From positions 62,001 to 126,000 of the forward strand of contig SCNI01000006.1 in the NCBI GenBank assembly GCA_005502775.1: 64,000 nt of DNA, given 5' to 3'. The DNA is from Microbacteriaceae bacterium 3FA27C10. Its GTDB lineage: Bacteria > Actinomycetota > Actinomycetes > Actinomycetales > Microbacteriaceae. Under the pieces are notes generated by a model, which saw nothing but the letters and a program-made list of their open reading frames with translations, did not search any database and had not been told where the DNA came from. Shown piece after piece: positions 21,618 to 31,373 of this stretch (position 1 is the stretch's first letter; every line of letters begins with the position of its first letter). Both the position numbers and the translations under genes were made by a program.

Positions 21618-22994
21618 ATGACCACGCACCTCAGCCGGCTGCAGCACTCCCGCGCCCCGCACCTCACGCTCGACGAGGGGATGGCGGCGGGCCGGGCGCT
21701 CCGCGCATCCGTTCCCCGCTCGGCGCATCGCGAGCCGGTCGACGAGGGCGGCCGTGACCCGCTCGGCATCCTCGCCGCGCAGAACGCCACCCGGTTGCCG
21801 GAGCTCGTGCCGCTGCGGCTCGAGCGGATGCTCGCGAGCCCGTTCGCGTTCTACCGGGGCACCGCGGGCATCATGGCCGCCGACCTCGCCCGCGGACCAG
21901 CCACCGGCGTGCACCTCGTGACCTGCGGCGACGCGCACATCAGCAACTTCGGCCTCTTCGCCTCGCCGCAGCGCACCCTCATGTTCGACCTCAACGACTT
22001 CGACGAGTCGGCGGCCGGGCCCTGGGAGTGGGACGTGAAGCGGCTCGTCACGAGCGTGATCATCGGTGCCCGCGACGCCGGCTTCGGCGAGCGCACCGTG
22101 AAGGAGTCGGCACTCACCGCCGCCGCCATGTACCGCACCGCCCTGCGCGACTTCATGCAGCTCGACGCCCTCGAGCGCTACTACTACCACCCTGACCCCG
22201 AGTCGCCACGGGTCGCCCTCGACGCGCGCTCCCGCAAGGTGCTCGACCGCGCCTCCCGCCAGGCCCGCAAGCGCACCTCTCGCTCCTACCTGGAGAAGAT
22301 CTCCACGCGCGACGCCGACGGAAACCTCCTCATCGTCGAGAACCCGCCGGTGCTCACCCACGTGGCCACCTCGGTGGAGTCCGAGGTGGAGGAGCTCTTC
22401 GAGCAGTACCGCAGCACCGTTCCCGCCGACATCGCACTGCTGCTCTCCCACTTCACCCTCACCGACGTCGTGCGCCGGGTGGTCGGGGTGGGGAGCGTGG
22501 GCACGCGCTGCTTCATCCTCATCCTCACCGGCCCCTCGGGAGAGCCTCTCCTGCTGCAGGTGAAGGAGGCGCAGCGCTCCGTGATCGAGCAGTTCGGCGG
22601 GGTGCCGGCCGACGGCACCTACGACCACGAGGGGCACCGCGTGGTGGCCAGCCAGCGCATCCTGCAGTCCTCCTCCGACTCGTTCCTCGGCTACCTGCGC
22701 TACGAGGACCACGACTTCTACGTGCGCCAGTTCCGCGACATGAAGGGTTCGATCGAGACCACAGGGCTCCGGCCCGCGGAGTACACCCGCTACGTCACCG
22801 CCTGCGGCATCGCGCTGGCCCGCGCCCACGCGCAGAGCCTCGACGCACCGATCGTGGCCGGCTACCTCGGCAACTCGCGGGAGTTCGACCGCGCCGTGGT
22901 GGACTGGTCGCTCGCCTACGCCGAGCTCTCCCTCGCCGACTACGAGGCGCTGAAACGGGCAGTGGCCGAGGGTTACGGCACCAGCACCCAATAG
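21618..22994 (+). CDS. DUF2252 family protein
   Basis: A 458-residue soluble protein covering the whole DUF2252 domain. Hallmarks are FYRGTAGIMAADL, CGDAHISNFG (kinase-like catalytic loop with HisxAsn) and FDLNDFDE (DFD-like metal site), so a kinase-type fold is likely, though the substrate is unknown. It is monocistronic on the plus strand, and its last 22 bp overlap the 3' end of the convergent carotenoid operon. Confidence 0.85.
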   Translation: MTTHLSRLQHSRAPHLTLDEGMAAGRALRASVPRSAHREPVDEGGRDPLGILAAQNATRLPELVPLRLERMLASPFAFYRGTAGIMAADLARGPATGVHLVTCGDAHISNFGLFASPQRTLMFDLNDFDESAAGPWEWDVKRLVTSVIIGARDAGFGERTVKESALTAAAMYRTALRDFMQLDALERYYYHPDPESPRVALDARSRKVLDRASRQARKRTSRSYLEKISTRDADGNLLIVENPPVLTHVATSVESEVEELFEQYRSTVPADIALLLSHFTLTDVVRRVVGVGSVGTRCFILILTGPSGEPLLLQVKEAQRSVIEQFGGVPADGTYDHEGHRVVASQRILQSSSDSFLGYLRYEDHDFYVRQFRDMKGSIETTGLRPAEYTRYVTACGIALARAHAQSLDAPIVAGYLGNSREFDRAVVDWSLAYAELSLADYEALKRAVAEGYGTSTQ

Positions 22995-23860
22995 CCCGCC
23001 ACCGGATGCAGCACCCAGCTCCAGATGAGCAGCAGGGTCACGAGGAACCCGGTGACGAAATTGAGCCAGAGAAAGCGGTGCCAGCCCGCGTTCGCCCGCT
23101 CCGCATCCGCGTCGCCGAGCGACCAGAACGGCAGCACGCTCACGGCGTAGGGCAGCGCGAGCACGGCGGCGAGCGGCCCGGGCCACGGGGTGAGCAGCAG
23201 GAGCAGCCCGCCGAGCAGGTAGGCCGCGAAGGCGAAGCGCACCGTCGCCCTCGCCCCGATGACGGTGGCGATCGATCCGATGCCGGCCTCCCGGTCGGCC
23301 ACGATGTCCTGCACCGCCCCGAAGGCGTGGCTCGCGACGCCCCAGAGGAAGAAGGCGGCGAGCACGGCCCAGAGGCCCGGCGTGAACACGGCGCCGGCGA
23401 GCACGAGGCCGTAGACGGCCGGGCTCACGAAATGCGTGCTGGAGGTGAGCGAATCGAGGAACGGCCGCTCCTTGAACCGCAGGCGGGGCGCGCTGTAGGC
23501 GATGACCGCGACGATGCTCACGGCGAGCACGAGCCACGACAGCGGCGAGCCCACCACCACGAGGAACACCAGGAACGGGATGTTCGTCACGGCCACCGCC
23601 ACGAGCGTCGGCCGGTGCAGCGAACGGTCGAGCACCGCGCCCTCCACCCCTCCCTTGCGCGGGTTGCGCAGGTCGGACTCGTAGTCGAAGACGTCGTTGA
23701 TGCCGTACATCGCGAGGTTGTAGGGAATCAGGAAGTAGAGCGTGCCGAGCACGAACACCAGGTCGACCTCGCGCGTGGTCATGAGGTAGCCCGCCGCGAA
23801 CGGGAAGGCCGTGTTCACCCACGAGAGCGGGCGCGACGAGAGCAGCAACTGGCGGATCAC
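22973..23860 (-). CDS. crtEb: Lycopene elongase/hydratase-type prenyltransferase (UbiA family)
   Basis: A 295-residue membrane prenyltransferase with about eight transmembrane helices. The first Asp-rich motif is YGINDVFDYESD (NDxxDxxxD) and the second is AVQDIVADREAG (DxxxD). In the C50 carotenoid pathway it adds C5 units to lycopene, giving flavuxanthin-like intermediates. It is the last gene of crtE-B-I-Ye-Yf-Eb. GTG at 23860 overlaps the crtYf stop by 4 bp, and AAGGAG lies upstream. Its stop lies inside the 3' end of the convergent DUF2252 gene. Confidence 0.92.
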   Translation of the reverse strand: MIRQLLLSSRPLSWVNTAFPFAAGYLMTTREVDLVFVLGTLYFLIPYNLAMYGINDVFDYESDLRNPRKGGVEGAVLDRSLHRPTLVAVAVTNIPFLVFLVVVGSPLSWLVLAVSIVAVIAYSAPRLRFKERPFLDSLTSSTHFVSPAVYGLVLAGAVFTPGLWAVLAAFFLWGVASHAFGAVQDIVADREAGIGSIATVIGARATVRFAFAAYLLGGLLLLLTPWPGPLAAVLALPYAVSVLPFWSLGDADAERANAGWHRFLWLNFVTGFLVTLLLIWSWVLHPVAGYWVLVP

Positions 23861-24189
23861 GAGGGCTCCTTGCGGTCGGCGCCGAGCAACGTCCAGACGG
23901 AGGGCAGCAACACCACGGCCGCGATGGCGTAGGCGAAGTCCTCCAGGGGGGCGATGCCCACGAAGGCGCCGGAGATGAGCTTCGGGTCGTAGCCGACGAG
24001 GCCCACCGAGATCATGACGTTGTCGAACACCGCGGTGAGGGCGAGCAGCACGGCTGCGGTGATGCCGACGGGTGCCGCCAGCCGGCGGAGCGCATCCGGG
24101 GCCCGGCCCACCACGGCCACGATCGCGGCGGCGATTCCTGTGGCGGCCACGACCGCGAGGAACACGAGGTTGAGGGCCCAATAGCTCAT
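23857..24189 (-). CDS. crtYf: C50 carotenoid epsilon-cyclase subunit, CrtYf-like
   Basis: A 110-residue lycopene-cyclase-domain protein with three transmembrane helices. The conserved PLEDFAYA motif (family PxE(E/D)) lies near residue 80. In actinobacteria two such small subunits act together to close the rings of C50 carotenoids. Both its ends overlap neighbours by 4 bp (crtYe upstream, crtEb downstream), indicating tight coupling. Confidence 0.9.
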   Translation of the reverse strand: MSYWALNLVFLAVVAATGIAAAIVAVVGRAPDALRRLAAPVGITAAVLLALTAVFDNVMISVGLVGYDPKLISGAFVGIAPLEDFAYAIAAVVLLPSVWTLLGADRKEPS

Positions 24190-24563
24190 GAGTCGCCTCC
24201 CTGAGGCGGGTTCGCGTTCGCCTGGGCGCCGCGGCCGGCGCCGGCGGAGCGCGGGCGGGCGAGCACCCGCTGCGCCCCGCAGAACACGACCATGGTGAGG
24301 TAGCAGAGCAGTGTGAGGAAGAACAGCTCCTCGATCGGCAGCTCGGGCGCGAGCAGGAGGCCCGTCATGAACGCCGTCTCTCCGCGGAAGAAGATGCCGA
24401 GCCCGATGCCCGCGAGATCCCACACCACGAAGAACGTCACCCCGATGGCGAGCACCACGACCGCCCGCACCGGCCGCGCGAACAGGAACAGCCGCCAGCG
24501 CCGGTCGATCACCACCATTCCGGTGAGCGAGATCACTAGCGCCGCCAGATACAGGATGCCCAT
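24186..24563 (-). CDS. crtYe: C50 carotenoid epsilon-cyclase subunit, CrtYe-like
   Basis: A 125-residue lycopene-cyclase-domain subunit with three transmembrane helices and the conserved LPIEELFF motif (PxEE). The hydrophilic Ala/Gly-rich C-terminus (residues ~105-125) is species-specific. It pairs with the following crtYf to form the heterodimeric cyclase. It starts 14 bp after the crtI stop; the ATG at 24563 fits the family start. Confidence 0.9.
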   Translation of the reverse strand: MGILYLAALVISLTGMVVIDRRWRLFLFARPVRAVVVLAIGVTFFVVWDLAGIGLGIFFRGETAFMTGLLLAPELPIEELFFLTLLCYLTMVVFCGAQRVLARPRSAGAGRGAQANANPPQGGDS

Positions 24564-24577
24564 GGCCGGCTCCGCCC

Positions 24578-26383
24578 TCAGGCGCCGGACGGCCGCACCG
24601 GGCCCGCGCCGAGCGGCCGCAACGGCTCGGGCAACGCGGTGGTGGTGGTGTCGCCGTGCAGTCGCTTGATCACGAGTTCGGCGCTGATGAGGCACATCGG
24701 CAGGCCGATGCCGGGCGTGGTGGAACCGCCGGCGTAGTAGAGGCCGTCGACCTTGGTGCTCGCGTTGCGGGCGCGGAACATGGCGCTCTGCCGCAGAGTG
24801 TGTGCGGGGCCGAGCGCCGTGCCCTGCCAGGAGTTGAGGTCGGCGGCGAAGTCGGCGGGCCCGACCGTGCGGCGCAGCACCACGCGCTCGGCCAGGTCGG
24901 GGATGCCCGCCCATTCCGCCACCTGCGCGATGGCGGCGTCGGCGAGCTGCTCCACCCGGGGATCGCCCGCGCCGTCGATGCCGCCGGCGCCGATGGAGGG
25001 GTCTGCGGGGAGAGGAACCAGCACGAAGAGATTCTCGTGACCCGCGGGCGCGACGGAGTCGTCGGTGGCGCTGGGCCGGCAGACGTAGAGCGAGGCGGGC
25101 TCGGGCACCGAGGTCTGGTGGCCCGGGCCCGTGCCGAAGATCTTCTCGAAAGAGCCCTTCCAGTCCTTCGTGAAGAAGAGGGTGTGGTGCTCGAGCTCCG
25201 GCAGTTCGCCTTCGACTCCGAGCAGCACGAGCAAGGCGCTGGGGCCCGCCGTCTTCTTCTCCCAATAGCTCTCGGGGTAGGTCTGCAACTCCGGCAGCAG
25301 CAGGGCCGTCTCGGTGTGCCACAGATCCGCGGTGGAGACCACGAGTTCGCCGTCGAGCGAGTGGGCGCGGCCGGCCGCGTCGGTGTAGTGCACGCCGCCC
25401 ACGCGCGGACGGCCGCTGCGTCCGTCCGGCACCTCGTCGGGCTCCGGTGCCGGAACGGGCGCGATCGACGCCTCGCCCGCCAGCACCCGCCGGAGCTCGT
25501 CACGGTCGATGACGTTCGTGTCGAATTCCGTGGTCTCGTAGTCGTAGACGTCGACCGGGCCCGCCGGGGCAGCGGATGCCGCCTCCGCGCCGTCGACCGC
25601 CATCACGATCCGCGAGACCGCGGCGCCGGTCACGATCTCCACGCCCTCGGCCACGGCGAGTCGCTCGACCGCGTCGATCACCGTGGCGAGCCCGCCCATC
25701 GGGTAGAGCACGCCCTCGTCGAGGTCGAGATGGCTCATCAGGTGATACATGCTCGGAGCGGAATATGGCGAGCTGCCGAGGAAGACGGCCGGATAGCCGA
25801 GCACCTGCTGCAGCCGCGGGTCTCGCACCGTGCGCGCCGCGAAACCGGCGAGCGGCTCGGTGAGCAGGCGCGTGAGCCGGGGGAGTCGCCGCAGCACGGG
25901 GCCGGCGAGCAAGGGCGAGATCTTCTCGAAGGTGGAGTAGAGAAAGTACTCCTTGGCGAGCGCATAGGTCTCCTCGGCCGAGTCGAGGTAGCCCGCCATC
26001 CGCACGCCGGAGCCCGGCTCGATCGATTCGAAGAGCTCGAGGTTCTCGTCGCGGCCGGCGGCGATGTCGACGGGGGCGAACTCCCCCTCGAAGTAGACGC
26101 GGTAGCCCGGGTCGAGCTTCACGAGCTCGAGCTCGGCCTCCGCACTCGTGCCGAGCAGCTTGAAGAAGTGGTCGAACACCTCCGGCATGAGGTACCACGA
26201 AGGCCCGGTATCGAAGCGGAACCCCTCGCTCTCCCAGACCCCGGCTCGCCCGCCGACAGCGTCGTTCTTCTCGAGGAGGGTGACCTGATGGCCCTCGCGC
26301 GCGAGGAGCGCGGCGGTCGCCAGCCCGCTGATGCCCCCGCCGATCACGATCGCCCGCCGGGCGCTGTCGTTACTCGCGGTCAC
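24578..26383 (-). CDS. crtI: Phytoene desaturase
   Basis: A 601-residue flavoprotein that converts phytoene to lycopene. The N-terminal FAD-binding motif is IVIGGGISGLATAALLA, followed by EKNDAVGGRAG. The C-terminal signature GLYYAGGSTTPGIGLPMCL is also typical of bacterial CrtI. It is longer than most CrtI (about 500-550) because of an insert near residues 270-330 and a Pro-rich tail. The GTG at 26383 overlaps the crtB stop by 4 bp. Confidence 0.94.
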   Translation of the reverse strand: MTASNDSARRAIVIGGGISGLATAALLAREGHQVTLLEKNDAVGGRAGVWESEGFRFDTGPSWYLMPEVFDHFFKLLGTSAEAELELVKLDPGYRVYFEGEFAPVDIAAGRDENLELFESIEPGSGVRMAGYLDSAEETYALAKEYFLYSTFEKISPLLAGPVLRRLPRLTRLLTEPLAGFAARTVRDPRLQQVLGYPAVFLGSSPYSAPSMYHLMSHLDLDEGVLYPMGGLATVIDAVERLAVAEGVEIVTGAAVSRIVMAVDGAEAASAAPAGPVDVYDYETTEFDTNVIDRDELRRVLAGEASIAPVPAPEPDEVPDGRSGRPRVGGVHYTDAAGRAHSLDGELVVSTADLWHTETALLLPELQTYPESYWEKKTAGPSALLVLLGVEGELPELEHHTLFFTKDWKGSFEKIFGTGPGHQTSVPEPASLYVCRPSATDDSVAPAGHENLFVLVPLPADPSIGAGGIDGAGDPRVEQLADAAIAQVAEWAGIPDLAERVVLRRTVGPADFAADLNSWQGTALGPAHTLRQSAMFRARNASTKVDGLYYAGGSTTPGIGLPMCLISAELVIKRLHGDTTTTALPEPLRPLGAGPVRPSGA

Positions 26384-27345
26384 TGGATCGTGTCTCCCTC
26401 GTGGTCGCCGCGGGCAGCGCGTGCGCCGCTCGCCTTGGGGAGCCGCCCGAGCGCGGCCCCTGCAGCTATTCTCGCCTTCACGGGGTTCGGAACCCGGATG
26501 CGCGTGGCCGCGAGTACGGATGCCGGCGTGGCCCGCAGTCGATCCGTCAGCTCCTCGAACAGTCCTTGCGCGAGCGCGACGGCCCGCCGGCTCGACGCGG
26601 GGAGGCCGGGGAGGCAGGAGCGCGCGATCCGCAGATCGTCGTCGATGTCGTCCAGGATGCGCTCCTTCTCGGCCTCGCTGAACGTCTCGACGTCGATGCC
26701 GGGAAAGTAGCTGCGCCCGAGCGCGCCGAAATCGGCTGCCAGGTCGCGCAGGAAGTTGATCTTCTGGAACGCCGCCCCGAGGTGCCGGGCGCCGTCGGCG
26801 AGGCGCGCACGCTCGACCTCGCTCACCTGGACTCCGCGCAGGAAGGCGGCCAAGCACATCAGCCCCACCACCTCGGCCGAGCCGTAGACGTAGTCGTCGA
26901 AACTCTCCGGCGTGTGGCGGGTCTCGGAGACGTCGGAGCGCATCGAACGGAAGAACGGTGCCGTCAGCTCTTCGCCGAAGCCGGCGCGGCGGGCGGTCCA
27001 GCCGAAGGCGTGCACCACGAGGTTGGTGCTGTAGCCGCAGTGCATGGCTGTGACGGTCTCGCGCTCGAGGGCGTCGAGGCGGGCGCAGATCTCGGCCGGC
27101 GCCAGCGATGCCGAGGCCGCGACACCGTCGACCACTTCGTCGGCGATGCGGACGAGCGCGTAGATGTTCTCGACGTCCTGCCGCACCGGCTGCGCGAGCA
27201 GGCGGGAGGCGAGGCCGAACGAGGTGGAGTAGCGGCGGATCACCACCGACGCGGTCTCCATCGCGACCCGGTCGTAGAGGCTCGGAGCGTCGCCCGCGCT
27301 CGCTCCGCGCATCCAGTCGTCGCGACGCGGGTCGGTGCCGCTCAT
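26380..27345 (-). CDS. crtB: Phytoene synthase
   Basis: A 321-residue squalene/phytoene synthase that condenses two GGPP into phytoene. Both Asp-rich motifs are visible: first RIADEVVDG (DxxxD) and second NFLRDLAADF (DxxxD). The RSYFPG element of the family is present. The ATG at 27345 overlaps the crtE stop (ATGA), and the stop overlaps the crtI GTG. A C-terminal Arg/Gly-rich tail follows the conserved domain. Confidence 0.95.
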   Translation of the reverse strand: MSGTDPRRDDWMRGASAGDAPSLYDRVAMETASVVIRRYSTSFGLASRLLAQPVRQDVENIYALVRIADEVVDGVAASASLAPAEICARLDALERETVTAMHCGYSTNLVVHAFGWTARRAGFGEELTAPFFRSMRSDVSETRHTPESFDDYVYGSAEVVGLMCLAAFLRGVQVSEVERARLADGARHLGAAFQKINFLRDLAADFGALGRSYFPGIDVETFSEAEKERILDDIDDDLRIARSCLPGLPASSRRAVALAQGLFEELTDRLRATPASVLAATRIRVPNPVKARIAAGAALGRLPKASGARAARGDHEGDTIQ

Positions 27346-28412
27346 CGCACCCGCCCGAGCACCGCGGCGACGATCGGCCGGAACTCCTCCCGCACCGCGT
27401 CGGGCAGCGCCGGGTCGACGAGCGCCTCCCAGGCGCGGTTCGCGAAGTCGCGGGAGAGCGCCTCGGTGAAGCGGCGCGAGCCGGTCGACTCGAGAACGGC
27501 GCGGATGCGGTCGGCGTCGCCCGGGGTCAAGCCGGGCGACCCGAAGAGCCCGGCCACCGACTCCCACTCCGGGTGCGTCGCCGCGTGGGCGATGACGACC
27601 GTACGCTTGCCCTCGCGCAGGTCGCCGAGGGTCGTCTTGCCCGTGGCGTCCTCGTCTCCGAACACGCCGAGCAGGTCGTCGACGAGCTGGTACGCGATGC
27701 CGATGTTGCGTCCGAAGGCTCCGAGCGCCTCCACCGCGTCGCGCGGGGCGCCCGCGAGCACCGCACCGGCCTGCAGCGGCCCCTCGAAGGAGTACACGGC
27801 GGTCTTGAGGCGCTCCATGTCGAGGATCTCGTCGACGGTCGGCGGCTCGGAACGGATGGAGAAGTCGACGTCGTACAGCTCGCCCGCGGCCGCCGTGAAC
27901 ATGGCCTCGTCGAGGAGGTCCTGCAACCGGGTGCGCAGGATGCCCTCGGCACCGGAGCGGTCGATGAGGCGGTAGGCGTTGAAGAGGGCGAGGTCGCCCG
28001 CGATCACGGCCACCGACATCCCGCGGTGCTCGGCGATCGGCATCGGGATGCCCGCAGTCTGAGCGATGTCGCGGTAGCTGCCGGAGACGTTCGGGCCGCC
28101 GCGCCGCACGAAGTCGCGGTCGATCACGTCGTCGTGCACGATGAGCGCCGTGTGCAGCAGCTCGAACGCCGCGCCCACGTGGGCGGCCGCGTCGAGATCG
28201 ACGCCGCCGAGGGCCTCGTAGGCGGCCATCACCATGCGTGGGCGGAAGCGCTTGCCGCCGGTGGTGTTGCGCTCGAGGGTCTCCCAGAGGGCGGCGTATG
28301 GCGCTCCGAGGGCTTTCGCCCGATAGTGGGAATCGCTGAAGAACGCTGCCAGGACGCGCTCGACACGCTGTTGTCGGCGCTCCGACACCGCGAGCAGATC
28401 GTGCGTGTCCAC
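27342..28412 (-). CDS. crtE: Geranylgeranyl diphosphate synthase
   Basis: A 356-residue polyprenyl synthase. The first Asp-rich motif is HDDVIDRD; the second region is QLVDDLLGVFGDED. GGKRFRPRM near residue 50 binds IPP. It is the first gene of the crt operon, so it supplies GGPP to the following phytoene synthase. The start is GTG at 28412, only 45 bp from the divergent idi start. A minus-strand TTGTCC-N18-TGTAAC promoter can be drawn in that gap, which would give a very short or no leader. Confidence 0.92.
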   Translation of the reverse strand: MDTHDLLAVSERRQQRVERVLAAFFSDSHYRAKALGAPYAALWETLERNTTGGKRFRPRMVMAAYEALGGVDLDAAAHVGAAFELLHTALIVHDDVIDRDFVRRGGPNVSGSYRDIAQTAGIPMPIAEHRGMSVAVIAGDLALFNAYRLIDRSGAEGILRTRLQDLLDEAMFTAAAGELYDVDFSIRSEPPTVDEILDMERLKTAVYSFEGPLQAGAVLAGAPRDAVEALGAFGRNIGIAYQLVDDLLGVFGDEDATGKTTLGDLREGKRTVVIAHAATHPEWESVAGLFGSPGLTPGDADRIRAVLESTGSRRFTEALSRDFANRAWEALVDPALPDAVREEFRPIVAAVLGRVR

Positions 28413-28421
28413 GAACCCACG

Positions 28422-28440
28422 TTACATGGCAACCTGGTAA
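28422..28440. promoter_or_regulatory. Candidate operator between crtE and idi
   Basis: A 19-bp dyad of form TTACnnGG-nnn-CCnnGTAA fills most of the 45-bp region between the divergent crtE and idi starts. A factor bound here would cover both promoters. Actinobacterial crt clusters are often controlled by the MarR-type repressor CrtR. No regulator is adjacent here; a MarR gene lies at 63554. Operator status is inferred from symmetry and position. Confidence 0.5.
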
Positions 28441-28457
28441 TAAAGGACAATAGTGAA

Positions 28458-28985
28458 ATGAGCGCGTACTCCGAACAGGTCGTCCTGCTTGCCGATGACG
28501 GGTCGCCCATCGGTGTGGCCGACAAGCGGACCGTGCATTCCGACGACACCCCGTTGCACCTCGCGTTCAGCTGCCACGTGTTCGACGAGGCCGGTCGCAT
28601 CCTCGTGACGCGGCGTGCGCTCGGCAAGCTCACCTGGCCCGGGGTGTGGACGAACTCGTTCTGCGGGCATCCCGCGCCGGGGGAGGACATGGCGGAGGCG
28701 GTGCGCCGGCGGGCGCGCGACGAGCTCGGTCTCGAGCTGGCGGAGCTGACCTTGGCCCTGCCGGACTTCCGGTATCTCGCGATCGACGCATCCGGGATCG
28801 TGGAGAACGAGATCTGCCCCGTGTACACCGCGCGTGCGGCCGGCCCGCTCGCGCCGAATCCGGCCGAGGTCGCCGAGTGGCACTGGGCCGAGACCACCGA
28901 GGTGCAGCTCGCGGTGGCCCTCACGCCCTGGGCCTTCAGCCCGTGGCTCGTGCTGCAGCTGCCGCAGCTGCCCGCCCGGCCGTAG
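28458..28985 (+). CDS. idi: Isopentenyl-diphosphate delta-isomerase, type 1
   Basis: A 175-residue Nudix-fold isomerase interconverting IPP and DMAPP. The catalytic Cys69 is in NSFCGHP, the catalytic Glu in ENEIC, and the Nudix-like helix in EAVRRRARDELGL. AAAGGA lies about 10 bp before the ATG at 28458. It is divergent from the carotenoid operon, so both can be controlled from the same short region to feed precursor into C50 carotenoids. Confidence 0.95.
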   Translation: MSAYSEQVVLLADDGSPIGVADKRTVHSDDTPLHLAFSCHVFDEAGRILVTRRALGKLTWPGVWTNSFCGHPAPGEDMAEAVRRRARDELGLELAELTLALPDFRYLAIDASGIVENEICPVYTARAAGPLAPNPAEVAEWHWAETTEVQLAVALTPWAFSPWLVLQLPQLPARP

Positions 28986-29095: not shown

Positions 29096-30526
29096 ATGGA
29101 CGCCCACGACATCCGCAACTCCTACCTGGCCTCCCTCGAAGGCCACGGCCACACCGTCATCGACCGAGCGAATCTGGTGCCGCGCGGCGACACCAGCACG
29201 CTCTTCACCGGGAGCGGGATGCAGGCGCTCCTTCCCTACCTGCTCGGCGAGACGCATCCGGCGGGCACGCGGCTGACCGACTCGCAGCCCTGCGTGCGAG
29301 CGCAGGACATCGACGAGGTCGGCGACAACCGCCACACCACCTTCTTCGAGATGCTCGGCAACTGGAGCCTGGGCGACTACTTCAAGGAGGACCAGATCCG
29401 CTGGTTCTTCGAGTTCCTGGTCGACACGGTGGGGCTCGATCCCGAGAAGCTCTACGTGACCTGCTTCATCGGCGACGAGGCCAACGGCATCCCGCGCGAC
29501 GAGGAGGCCGCCTCGATCTGGCAGAAGGTCTTCGGCGAGCGCGGCGTCTCGAACGGCATCGCCGTGATCGGCTCGCAGGCCGACGGGGATGCGCGGGGCG
29601 TGCATCCGGGCGAGCGCATCTTCTTCTACGACGGCGGCGAGAACTGGTGGTCTCGCGGCGGCTCGCTCGCGGCCACGCCCATCGGCGACCCGTGCGGTCC
29701 CGACAGCGAGGTGTTCTACGACTTCGGGCCGGAGAAGCAGGATGCGTCGTTCGGCCTCGCGCACCCTGCCAGCGATGGCGGGCAGTTCATGGAGATCGGC
29801 AATCAGGTGTTCATGCAGTACCGGCGCCTCGACGACGGCTCATTCGAGGAGCTCGCGCGGCGCAACGTCGACTTCGGCGGCGGGCTCGAGCGCATCGCGG
29901 CAGCCTCGATCGAGTCGGACGACGTGTTCCGCATCTCGCTGCTGTGGCCGATCATCGAGTCGCTGCAGGAGCTGACCGGGCGCCGCTACGAGGACGAGAC
30001 GGCGTCGATGCGGATCATCGCCGACCATCTTCGCGGAGCCACCTTCCTCGCCGTCGACGGGGTGCGGCCCTCGAACAAGGAGCAGGGCTATGTGATGCGG
30101 CGGCTGCTGCGGCGCGCCATCCGGCTCGCGCTCTCGCTCGGCCTCACCGAGAACTTCTTCGAGGTGGTGGTGCCGGTGATCGCCGATCTCTACGCGGCCG
30201 ACTACCCCGAGGTGGCGGCCTCGCGCGAGGAGGTCATCGCCGTGCTGGTGAAGGAGGAGAACGCCTTCCGGCGCACGCTCGAGGGCGGGCTGCAGACGCT
30301 CGCCGAGTGGGAGGTGGCCTCGATCACCGGTCGCGACGTGTTCCGGCTCTCGGACACCTACGGGTTCCCGAAGGAGCTGAGCGTCGAGGAGGCGCGGCGG
30401 CTCGGCATCGAGGTGGCCGACGACTGGGAGGCGGAGTTCGCCCTGGCCCTGGGGGAGCAGCGCGAGCGCTCCCGCGGGGCGACGCGCCTCGGCGCGGCCG
30501 GCTTGCCGGGCGGCGCGACCGCCTAG
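29096..30526 (+). CDS. Free-standing alanyl-tRNA synthetase-like protein (catalytic and tRNA-recognition domains only)
   Basis: A 476-residue protein equal to the first half of AlaRS. The class II catalytic core is present (motif 2 region FFEMLGNWSLGDYFK near 83-97, motif 3-like DFGGGLER), as is the helical tRNA-recognition domain (MRRLLRRAIR, DTYGFPKELS). It stops right after EQRERSR, where full AlaRS continues into the editing domain. The HxxxH/CxxxH editing site and C-Ala domain are absent, with no downstream remnant before the terminator at 30599, so it does not look recently truncated. It could be a functional aminoacylating paralogue or have another alanyl-transfer role. Confidence 0.85.
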   Translation: MDAHDIRNSYLASLEGHGHTVIDRANLVPRGDTSTLFTGSGMQALLPYLLGETHPAGTRLTDSQPCVRAQDIDEVGDNRHTTFFEMLGNWSLGDYFKEDQIRWFFEFLVDTVGLDPEKLYVTCFIGDEANGIPRDEEAASIWQKVFGERGVSNGIAVIGSQADGDARGVHPGERIFFYDGGENWWSRGGSLAATPIGDPCGPDSEVFYDFGPEKQDASFGLAHPASDGGQFMEIGNQVFMQYRRLDDGSFEELARRNVDFGGGLERIAAASIESDDVFRISLLWPIIESLQELTGRRYEDETASMRIIADHLRGATFLAVDGVRPSNKEQGYVMRRLLRRAIRLALSLGLTENFFEVVVPVIADLYAADYPEVAASREEVIAVLVKEENAFRRTLEGGLQTLAEWEVASITGRDVFRLSDTYGFPKELSVEEARRLGIEVADDWEAEFALALGEQRERSRGATRLGAAGLPGGATA

Positions 30527-30598: not shown

Positions 30599-30650
30599 CT
30601 GAAACGACGGAGCCTAGGCCCGCATCCGGCCCGGCCCTCCGTCGTTTCAG
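30599..30650. terminator. Bidirectional terminator hairpin overlapping the dcd stop
   Basis: CTGAAACGACGGAG (30599-30612) pairs perfectly with CTCCGTCGTTTCAG (30637-30650), a 14-bp stem with a 24-base GC-rich loop. It separates the convergent AlaRS-like gene from dcd, whose stop codon (30647-30649) lies inside the right arm. Confidence 0.75.
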
Positions 30651-31252
30651 CCGCCGAGGGCGCCGTCGGTGTCAGCTGAGACGTCGCTGCGGTGGAAGTT
30701 CAGGTGCGAGCGCGAGGCGGTCGGGCCCCGCTGGCCCTGGTAACGCGAGTTGTACTGGCTCGAGCCGTAGGGCCTCTCGGTGGGGCTCGAGAGCTGGAAG
30801 AAGCACAGCTGGCCGATCTTCATGCCCGGCCAGAGCTTGATCGGCAGTGTGGCGACGTTGCTGAGCTCGAGCGTGACGTGACCGGTGAAGCCGGGGTCGA
30901 TGAAGCCCGCGGTGGAGTGGGTGAGCAGCCCGAGCCGGCCGAGCGAGCTCTTGCCCTCGAGGCGGGCCGCGATGTCGTCGGGCAGACCGACGCGCTCGTA
31001 GGTGCTGCCGAGAACGAACTCTCCCGGATGCAGGATGAACGGCTCGTCGGGCTTGGTCTCGATCAGCCGCGTGAGCTCCGGCTGGTCCTCGGCCGGGTCG
31101 ATGAAGGGGTACTTGTGGTTGTCGAACAGGCGGAAGTACCGGTCGAGGCGCACGTCGATGGACGAGGGCTGCAGCATCGCCGGGTCGTAGGGCTCGAGGC
31201 TGACCCGGTTCTCGCGGAGCTGGGTGCGGATGTCGCGGTCGGAGAGGAGCAC
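30647..31252 (-). CDS. dcd: dCTP deaminase
   Basis: A 201-residue member of the dUTPase-like trimeric family. It deaminates dCTP for dTTP synthesis. Conserved features are [10 protein letters not shown] (Ser/Arg substrate contacts), [12 protein letters not shown] with the catalytic Glu, and the C-terminal QGQRGPT lid. In some actinobacteria the enzyme is bifunctional (dCTP to dUMP); which form this is cannot be settled here. Divergent from a tRNA-Gly gene 47 bp upstream. Confidence 0.95.
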
Positions 31253-31299
31253 GGAGTCAGTGTAACGGCGCTCCTGCTATCCTCGGTTCTGCACCATAC

Positions 31300-31373
31300 G
31301 CGGATGTAGTTCAATGGCAGAACTTCAGCTTCCCAAGCTGATAGCGCGGGTTCGATTCCCGTCATCCGCTCCA
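31300..31373 (+). tRNA. tRNA-Gly (anticodon CCC)
   Basis: Complete cloverleaf. Acceptor GCGGATG pairs with CATCCGC (31300-31306 / 31363-31369). D arm GTTC/GAAC. Anticodon stem TCAGC/GCTGA encloses loop TTCCCAA, with anticodon CCC at 31332-31334. The T arm has TTCGATT loop. Discriminator T is followed by an encoded CCA (31371-31373). It reads GGG glycine codons. Confidence 0.97.

Follow-up and report, generated by a model that had tools for sequence, protein, structure and literature searches.

A free-standing alanyl-tRNA synthetase core of Saccharibacteria descent in actinobacteria and its possible role in lipid alanylation

We found that a gene of Microbacteriaceae bacterium 3FA27C10 encodes a free-standing core of an alanyl-tRNA synthetase (AlaRS) that is of Saccharibacteria (CPR) descent and is not a truncated actinobacterial alaS. 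The gene lies on the forward strand of the stretch of 64,000 nucleotides analyzed here (the window), at 29096..30526; its open reading frame starts with ATG and encodes 476 aa, which make up a catalytic and tRNA-recognition core of the CPR/Saccharibacteria type. We refer to this protein and its short relatives as mini-AlaRSs. In our judgment, there is about an even chance that the mini-AlaRS is an active, nonediting enzyme that supplies Ala-tRNA for lipid alanylation, as an alanine analogue of LysX. This proposal builds on the origin and architecture of the gene, its intact pocket, the purifying selection acting on it, the presence of a full-length alaS, and the neighborhood and co-occurrence observed in relatives; from these we infer aminoacylation activity, a lipid target, and the same job in the window genus.

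Architecture and conserved residues of the window protein

Residues 5 to 462 of the window protein matched the Pfam family tRNA-synt_2c at profile positions 1 to 431 of 552 (E value = 1.3e-108), and the score of 364 bits, against a curated cutoff of 30.3, identifies an AlaRS catalytic core; no other Pfam family, tRNA_SAD included, matched at E values up to 1. The best NCBIfam model was PRK01584 (383 bits, below its cutoff of 529), and the full-length AlaRS equivalog TIGR00344 alaS also stayed below its cutoff (371 bits versus 457). The protein lacks the editing and C-Ala domains of a full-length AlaRS. An AlphaFold2 model (pLDDT 90.1, pTM 0.87) placed AlaRS folds at the top of the structure searches: VIA-align gave a Z score of 44.7 over 409 residues with the AlaRS catalytic fragment 3htz and of 43.6 over 418 residues with the Escherichia coli AlaRS fragment 3hxu, and Foldseek matched 9jdn (E value = 5.9e-37). 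By model and alignment, the protein closes with a long C-terminal helix (residues 444 to 468; 30425..30499, forward strand), after which the editing domain starts in CPR relatives; residues 464 to 476 of the model have a pLDDT below 50. Pfam, alignment, and model thus agree with a first-pass annotation, made from the sequence alone, that the protein stops where AlaRS enters its editing domain.

That annotation had also reported no decayed editing remnant downstream of the gene. A tblastn search with two CPR editing domains and the rest of full-length AlaRS bore this out: it found no editing remnant in the window, where the sole match (E value = 0.33) falls within the mini-AlaRS open reading frame and the positive controls matched, and none in 45 mini-AlaRS loci, with flanks of mostly 1.5 kb. 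The terminator that had been placed after the gene fared less clearly. A strong hairpin is present between the mini-AlaRS gene and the convergent dcd gene (30599..30650, arms 30599 to 30610 and 30639 to 30650, z = −3.9), but a terminator scan that requires a T-run does not call it; the hairpin is possibly a two-way terminator with no T-run.

Beyond the hairpin, the region 30647 to 31373 holds dcd (dCTP deaminase), convergent with the mini-AlaRS gene, and then a tRNA-Gly(CCC) gene (31300..31373, forward strand). The pair of mini-AlaRS and dcd genes recurs in two other loci (L123 and L125), which makes a tRNA-side entry point possible. On the other side, at about 22973 to 28985, the window carries a carotenoid-biosynthesis-like cluster with a polyprenyl synthase gene matched by Pfam (27342..28412, reverse strand) and, by reading, phytoene synthase-like, desaturase-like, cyclase-like small membrane, and prenyltransferase-like genes and an idi-like gene (28458..28985, forward strand).

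We aligned the window protein with 46 mini-AlaRS rows, 39 CPR rows, and E. coli AlaRS, whose residues are numbered with Met as residue 1. The equivalents of E. coli R70, N213, V215, D236, G238, N303, R315, and D400 were identical in the window protein and in all 46 mini-AlaRS rows. The Arg equivalent to R70 lies within residues 64 to 92 (29285..29371, forward strand), a region with invariant columns that we take to be the motif 2 region, and residues 236 to 270 (29801..29905, forward strand; invariant in the alignment), in which N236 corresponds to N213 and D259 to D236, presumably form the alanine/adenylate pocket and motif 3. The alignment further identified Asn327 (30074..30076, forward strand) as the equivalent of N303 and Asp420 (30353..30355, forward strand) as that of D400. 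In E. coli, N303 contacts U70 and D400 contacts G3 of tRNA-Ala, according to excerpts of PMC10036535. This Asn and Asp, which read G3:U70, were kept in 46 of 46 mini-AlaRS rows, and the position of D400 held Asp in all of them versus 12 of 39 CPR rows. The host tRNA-Ala with anticodon TGC (the one read) carries G3 opposite U70, so that, with the residues kept, the sequence offers nothing against charging of the host tRNA-Ala. The earlier claim of intact catalytic motifs and tRNA recognition was upheld by the eight residues checked; a loss of ATP/Ala pocket residues on alignment, which had been named as evidence to the contrary, did not appear.

Descent, distribution, and selection

A scan of GTDB contigs yielded 590 confirmed candidates, of which the best 80 were taken. 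Among these best 80 of 590, the nearest relatives were AlaRSs of Saccharibacteria/Patescibacteria and mini-AlaRSs of scattered actinobacteria. All 8 actinobacterial loci among them encode 463 to 471 aa, versus 577 to 660 aa in 69 of the 72 nonactinobacterial loci (including L036 and L064, which seem incomplete at the 5′ end); the other 3 are cut by contig ends or masked. The long forms run about 160 aa further; this extension is an editing domain, marked by the motifs HTATHLL and CGGPH, which are missing from the mini-AlaRSs. Over the core, the window protein was 54 to 69% identical to 11 forms of the Saccharibacteria group, and an insertion and the NWWS, GPDSE, and GGLER signatures of the alignment are common to it and the CPR/Saccharibacteria forms. 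Eight of these 11 rows are titled Saccharibacteria and one (L022) only Patescibacteria; two (L025 and L033) are titled only “bacterium,” so their placement in Saccharibacteria rests on the tree. With 35% identity to the alaS product of its own genome and a grouping with CPR forms, the mini-AlaRS is not a recent duplicate of the host alaS. The phylogeny that the first-pass annotation had proposed thus sets the core apart from the full AlaRS of the host, and it adds the CPR/Saccharibacteria descent that the annotation had overlooked.

In a tree of 64 rows, 26 mini-AlaRSs fell within the Saccharibacteria rows at two places. Clade A comprises the window genus, Subtercola, Brachybacterium, and Brevibacterium; its sister (branch support 100/99) is formed by L021, from a Saccharibacteria metagenome-assembled genome (MAG), and L022, from a Patescibacteria MAG, both long forms that bear the editing domain. 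Clade B comprises Rhodococcus, Rhodococcoides, Williamsia, Pseudonocardia, and some members of the window family, with L033, again a long, editing-bearing form, as sister (branch support 100/96). A single origin of all mini-AlaRSs was rejected: constraining them to one clade cost 62.9 log units (AU test, P value = 0.0095), in a test that used one model, with some long CPR branches and with the 11 Saccharibacteria-group rows picked by similarity to the query. The simplest reading is that Saccharibacteria passed the gene to actinobacteria at least twice and that the editing domain was then apparently lost each time at one and the same joint, after the QRxRSR helix; as an alternative, an unsampled mini-AlaRS of Saccharibacteria, itself transferred twice, may be the source of both clades. 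Each of the 11 Saccharibacteria-group genomes has the long type and no other AlaRS core (the long type is in pieces in 2 genomes and accompanied in one by an extra short match to the profile end). Saccharibacteria are small episymbionts whose known hosts are actinobacteria.

CPR-like AlaRSs with about 40 to 45% identity also occur in MAGs labeled Clostridia, Christensenellaceae, Alphaproteobacteria, Methanoplasma, Methanomassiliicoccaceae, and similar (L075, L087 to L089, L092, L095 to L097, and L099), reflecting either a wider spread of the type or misbinned contigs.

All 16 genomes of the window genus carried the mini-AlaRS gene (a count that includes the genome of 3FA27C10 and was made apart from the threshold of the other samples), and the 15 congeners were 85 to 88% identical. 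At an E value of 1e-90, and again with this genome included, it was found in 23 of 299 genomes and 8 of 84 genera of the family sample, in 9 of 396 genomes of the order sample, and in 2 of 396 genomes of the phylum sample. Within the genus, dN/dS had a median of 0.20 and a maximum of 0.26 (45 pairs from 10 of the 16 genomes), compared with a median of 0.15 for the full-length alaS of the same 10 genomes (45 pairs); at the family level, the median was 0.34 for both genes (36 pairs each), and the mini-AlaRS gene reached at most 0.65. The gene is under purifying selection in the genus. No broken copy was found among the 46 mini-AlaRS rows, the matches flagged with TGA being those that extend beyond their own stop codon. 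The dN/dS within the genus, the presence of mini-AlaRSs of 473 to 481 aa in 16 of 16 congeners, and the absence of remnants together rule out a truncated pseudogene or an assembly break.

We also looked for the gene on mobile elements and found no carrier in the viral-contig, phage, and plasmid collections searched. Seven loci lay on viral contigs: six (L227 to L232), encoding AlaRS relatives, were near full length at 33 to 43% identity to the mini-AlaRS, and the seventh was an end piece of 102 bases at 76% identity. All matches in 30 phage and 126 plasmid records were below 60% identity, with no mini-type carrier at the settings used.

The first-pass annotation had called for a search for a full-length alaS elsewhere in the genome, and one encoding 905 aa was found on another contig. 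A full-length alaS was likewise present in 35 of 35 further mini-AlaRS genomes and in 6 of 6 named ones (Brachybacterium, Rhodococcus, Rhodococcoides, Williamsia, and two Pseudonocardia genomes), that is, in 42 of 42 genomes checked, which excludes the mini-AlaRS as the sole essential AlaRS. Only two tRNA_SAD genes were found in the genome of 3FA27C10, alaS and an open frame of 711 aa that is probably a threonyl-tRNA synthetase. A stand-alone AlaX for trans-editing was thus rejected for this genome, and trans-editing would fall to the full-length AlaRS.

Lipid-gene neighbors and candidate functions

Neighborhoods were read in 24 loci from clusters of open reading frames and a simple gene caller (the caller left the mini-AlaRS genes of L023, L028, L030, L133, and L135 uncalled, and their neighbors were taken from the clusters). 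An MprF-like aminoacyl-lipid synthase was the next gene in 6 of the 24 loci, in 5 genera and both clades: in Williamsia, two Pseudonocardia loci, and three members of the window family (L126, L128, and L129). Pfam confirmed LPG_synthase_C on the synthase of L129 (P0002) and on that of L128. The synthase of L126 lies 14 bp from the mini-AlaRS gene; in L128 it starts about 7 bp past it in the same direction, whereas the other five of the six pairs are convergent and so do not form operons. A seventh locus, L136, has a synthase 5.4 kb away. Coordinates place the mini-AlaRS and synthase genes side by side in every sampled genome of g50 (five) and g76 (two). An esterase (PF00756) lies near the mini-AlaRS gene in 5 of the 24 loci (in L137, 46 bp downstream on the same strand); we take it to be PesT-like, after pesT of Corynebacterium glutamicum, presumably the esterase gene beside alaDAGS. 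Neither synthase nor esterase was nearby in 16 of 24 loci, the window included, and neighbors varied by genus. The annotation's suggestion of a role in lipid or wall modification is thus favored by a synthase or esterase adjoining the gene in some relatives, but none adjoins the window gene; together with the full-length alaS in 42 of 42 genomes, those neighbors make it likely that the mini-AlaRS works outside bulk translation.

Two further features of the neighborhoods stood out. The synthase of L128 (10355 to 13132) is an unusual fusion in which a VTT/DedA domain at the N terminus and a weak rhomboid-like match precede LPG_synthase_C. In Rhodococcoides and, by reading, in Rhodococcus (L031, 2134 to 10749, and L030), the mini-AlaRS gene lies between cobN, identified by Pfam, and genes that read as cobalamin-biosynthesis-like.

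Next, we looked into how the mini-AlaRS and the adjacent synthase co-occur. In a quick tree, the adjacent synthases of both mini-AlaRS clades fell in one subfamily, together with nonadjacent synthases of G086, G152, G202, G939, G976, and G1061, and the synthases of Rhodococcus and Rhodococcoides lay next to this group. Searching 299 family genomes with the synthase of L129 (E value of 1e-105), we found the subfamily in 39: in 15 of 23 genomes with the mini-AlaRS versus 24 of 276 without it (Fisher test, P value = 8.7e-10, with genome counts that are not independent of kinship) and, by genus, in 6 of 8 versus 7 of 76 (P value = 1e-4). The 24 genomes with the subfamily and without the mini-AlaRS mean that the subfamily does not need it. 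Eight genomes had the mini-AlaRS without the subfamily, namely, the 7 sampled from the window genus and G040; 3FA27C10 and 6 congeners carry 2 other synthases each and G040 carries 5 (G006 and G010 left out). In 3FA27C10, one of the two starts 4 bp behind a related esterase (L171, by longest open reading frames). The adjacent pair is found in g76, whose mini-AlaRS is 86 to 87% identical to that of the window; the window genus may therefore once have had this partner, losing the synthase and keeping the mini-AlaRS. Among the 26 mini-AlaRS genomes searched for LPG_synthase_C, no such gene was found in 3 of 3 of the Brachybacterium/Brevibacterium branch, so the mini-AlaRS cannot serve such a synthase there; either something else draws on its Ala-tRNA in this branch or the lipid reading fails for the family as a whole. 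The amino acid handled by the synthase could not be told from solved structures: the best match in the PDB was a lysyl enzyme, and the alanyl one scored lower.

If the mini-AlaRS does supply Ala-tRNA for lipid alanylation, it would make alanyl-AMP and charge the ordinary G3:U70 tRNA-Ala of the cell, as a second source beside the housekeeping AlaRS. Most likely, this Ala-tRNA would go to the MprF-like membrane synthase, which would pass alanine on to a lipid; the product would be alanyl-diacylglycerol or alanyl-phosphatidylglycerol, with the esterase in the same pathway. In the window genus, the other synthases would have to replace the subfamily partner. Editing would be dispensable because the charge is destined for lipid and because the full-length AlaRS can clear mischarged tRNA.

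We consider it unlikely that the gene encodes a target-duplication (resistance) AlaRS, i.e., a foreign enzyme that is resistant to an AlaRS inhibitor, for example an alanyl-sulfamoyl nucleoside, and that, like AcmD of the ascamycin producer, sustains translation while the housekeeping AlaRS is blocked. The sporadic spread (23 of 299 family genomes and 2 of 396 phylum genomes), the descent from a distant phylum, and the intact pocket would fit such an enzyme, and AcmD is indeed a second AlaRS, more ascamycin resistant than the canonical one; AcmD, however, clusters with ordinary AlaRS homologues (both points from excerpts of PMC12945691). Moreover, an enzyme that does not edit would be a poor substitute in bulk translation, reading the neighbors of the 24 loci revealed no inhibitor cluster, and every genome of the genus (16 of 16) carries the mini-AlaRS, which in several genera neighbors lipid genes.

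The zinc site of AlaRS is located in the editing domain, and an enzyme reduced to the core would therefore go on charging tRNA under zinc shortage. A metal-sparing AlaRS of this kind would suit the absence of the editing motifs of the long forms, and in Brachybacterium and Brevibacterium, the mini-AlaRS gene shares a conserved island with nrdI and with genes for a ribonucleotide reductase small chain, an FMN reductase, and a ZnuA-type component of a metal importer (open reading frame clusters in 4 loci; Pfam on L023). We nonetheless regard this explanation as improbable. No metal genes were recognized beside the mini-AlaRS of the other branches, except for a metal-sensitive repressor two genes off in L137, and AT-rich palindromes in the 160 bases upstream of 20 mini-AlaRS genes occurred only in L023 and not in the window, an inconsistency for which we rejected a Zur-type operator.

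Little probability is likewise given to a spare translation AlaRS with no distinct job, redundant or on its way out. The sporadic distribution and the family dN/dS, at a median of 0.34 and as high as 0.65 in individual pairs, would suit such a gene; the genus dN/dS of about 0.2, the presence in 16 of 16 congeners, and the lack of broken copies among 46 mini-AlaRS rows speak against it. It is very improbable that the mini-AlaRS is an AlaRS-shaped transferase like AcmF, moving alanine from Ala-tRNA to a small molecule without activating it: AcmF is also truncated to the aminoacylation and tRNA-recognition domains, but, as described in the excerpts of PMC12945691, it lacks most ATP and alanine residues, whereas the eight residues checked here are kept in 46 of 46 mini-AlaRS rows.

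Comparison with known systems

For the supply of Ala-tRNA to lipid synthases, a close parallel is LysX of mycobacteria, in which an MprF enzyme is fused to a lysyl-tRNA synthetase (excerpts of PMC10580965); the mini-AlaRS may likewise be a dedicated synthetase tied to an MprF-type enzyme, to judge by the adjacency in 6 of 24 loci and the enriched co-occurrence. It is no member of the LysX family, being a free-standing AlaRS core of 463 to 494 aa with no MprF fusion, and the synthase is a separate gene that is adjacent in some genera only. C. glutamicum also pairs an MprF-like alanyl-lipid synthase, alaDAGS, with an esterase, pesT, as seen in L171, Williamsia, and Pseudonocardia (the comparison is by description); alaDAGS makes alanyl-diacylglycerol (Ala-DAG), and a joint deletion of pesT and alaDAGS takes away the gene for Ala-DAG and Ala-PG synthesis (excerpts of PMC10580965, which mention no mini-AlaRS).

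AcmF, a truncated AlaRS-like protein, and AcmD, an extra actinobacterial AlaRS, resemble the mini-AlaRS in part, and the excerpts of PMC12945691 mention a CPR descent for neither. With the eight residues checked kept in all 46 rows, the mini-AlaRSs do not show the loss of ATP and alanine residues described for AcmF. As AlaRS paralogues, a review table (excerpts of PMC9437257) lists only amino acid:carrier protein ligases. Within mostly open-access literature, a search for “mini-AlaRS” returned only the Tupanvirus paper, one on horizontal transfer of the alanyl-tRNA synthetase gene involving Saccharibacteria returned nothing, and no other title found describes such a protein.

By identity, signatures, and tree, the mini-AlaRS belongs to the same lineage as the CPR/Saccharibacteria AlaRS of the PRK01584 type. 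The latter, however, carries an editing domain and has no second AlaRS core beside it in the cell (11 of 11), whereas the mini-AlaRS ends earlier and is a second copy. In architecture, the mini-AlaRS matches TuAlaRS of Tupanvirus, a protein of 461 aa that consists of the aminoacylation and tRNA-recognition core only, with no editing or C-Ala domain, and that charges tRNA-Ala and replaces yeast AlaRS (excerpts of PMC10036535); the mini-AlaRS, too, has only the catalytic and tRNA-recognition domains, and the long C-terminal helix of its model is common to both. The two differ in lineage. According to excerpts of PMC10036535, TuAlaRS is of eukaryotic lineage and lacks the Asn/Asp pair, whereas the mini-AlaRS is bacterial, nests among Saccharibacteria in our tree of 64 rows, and keeps N327 and D420. 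Judged on sequence, its architecture is the one already known from TuAlaRS, and what seems new is the CPR lineage, the bacterial host, and the retained Asn/Asp pair.

We hold it possible, at somewhat less than an even chance, that mini-AlaRSs were captured at least twice from an episymbiont phylum, lost editing at the same joint, and became tied to one subfamily of MprF-like enzymes as its dedicated nonproofreading supplier. If so, cellular life would have its first mini-AlaRS, an alanine counterpart of LysX, and such an enzyme could also allow serine or glycine to reach lipid. A family of these cores, found in free-living bacteria beside a full-length alaS, makes it testable whether proofreading is needed when aminoacyl-tRNA serves lipid. 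Moreover, if a translation gene has repeatedly passed from episymbionts into the phylum of their hosts and shed the same domain each time, the direction of this gene flow would be unusual and the parallel evolution clear.
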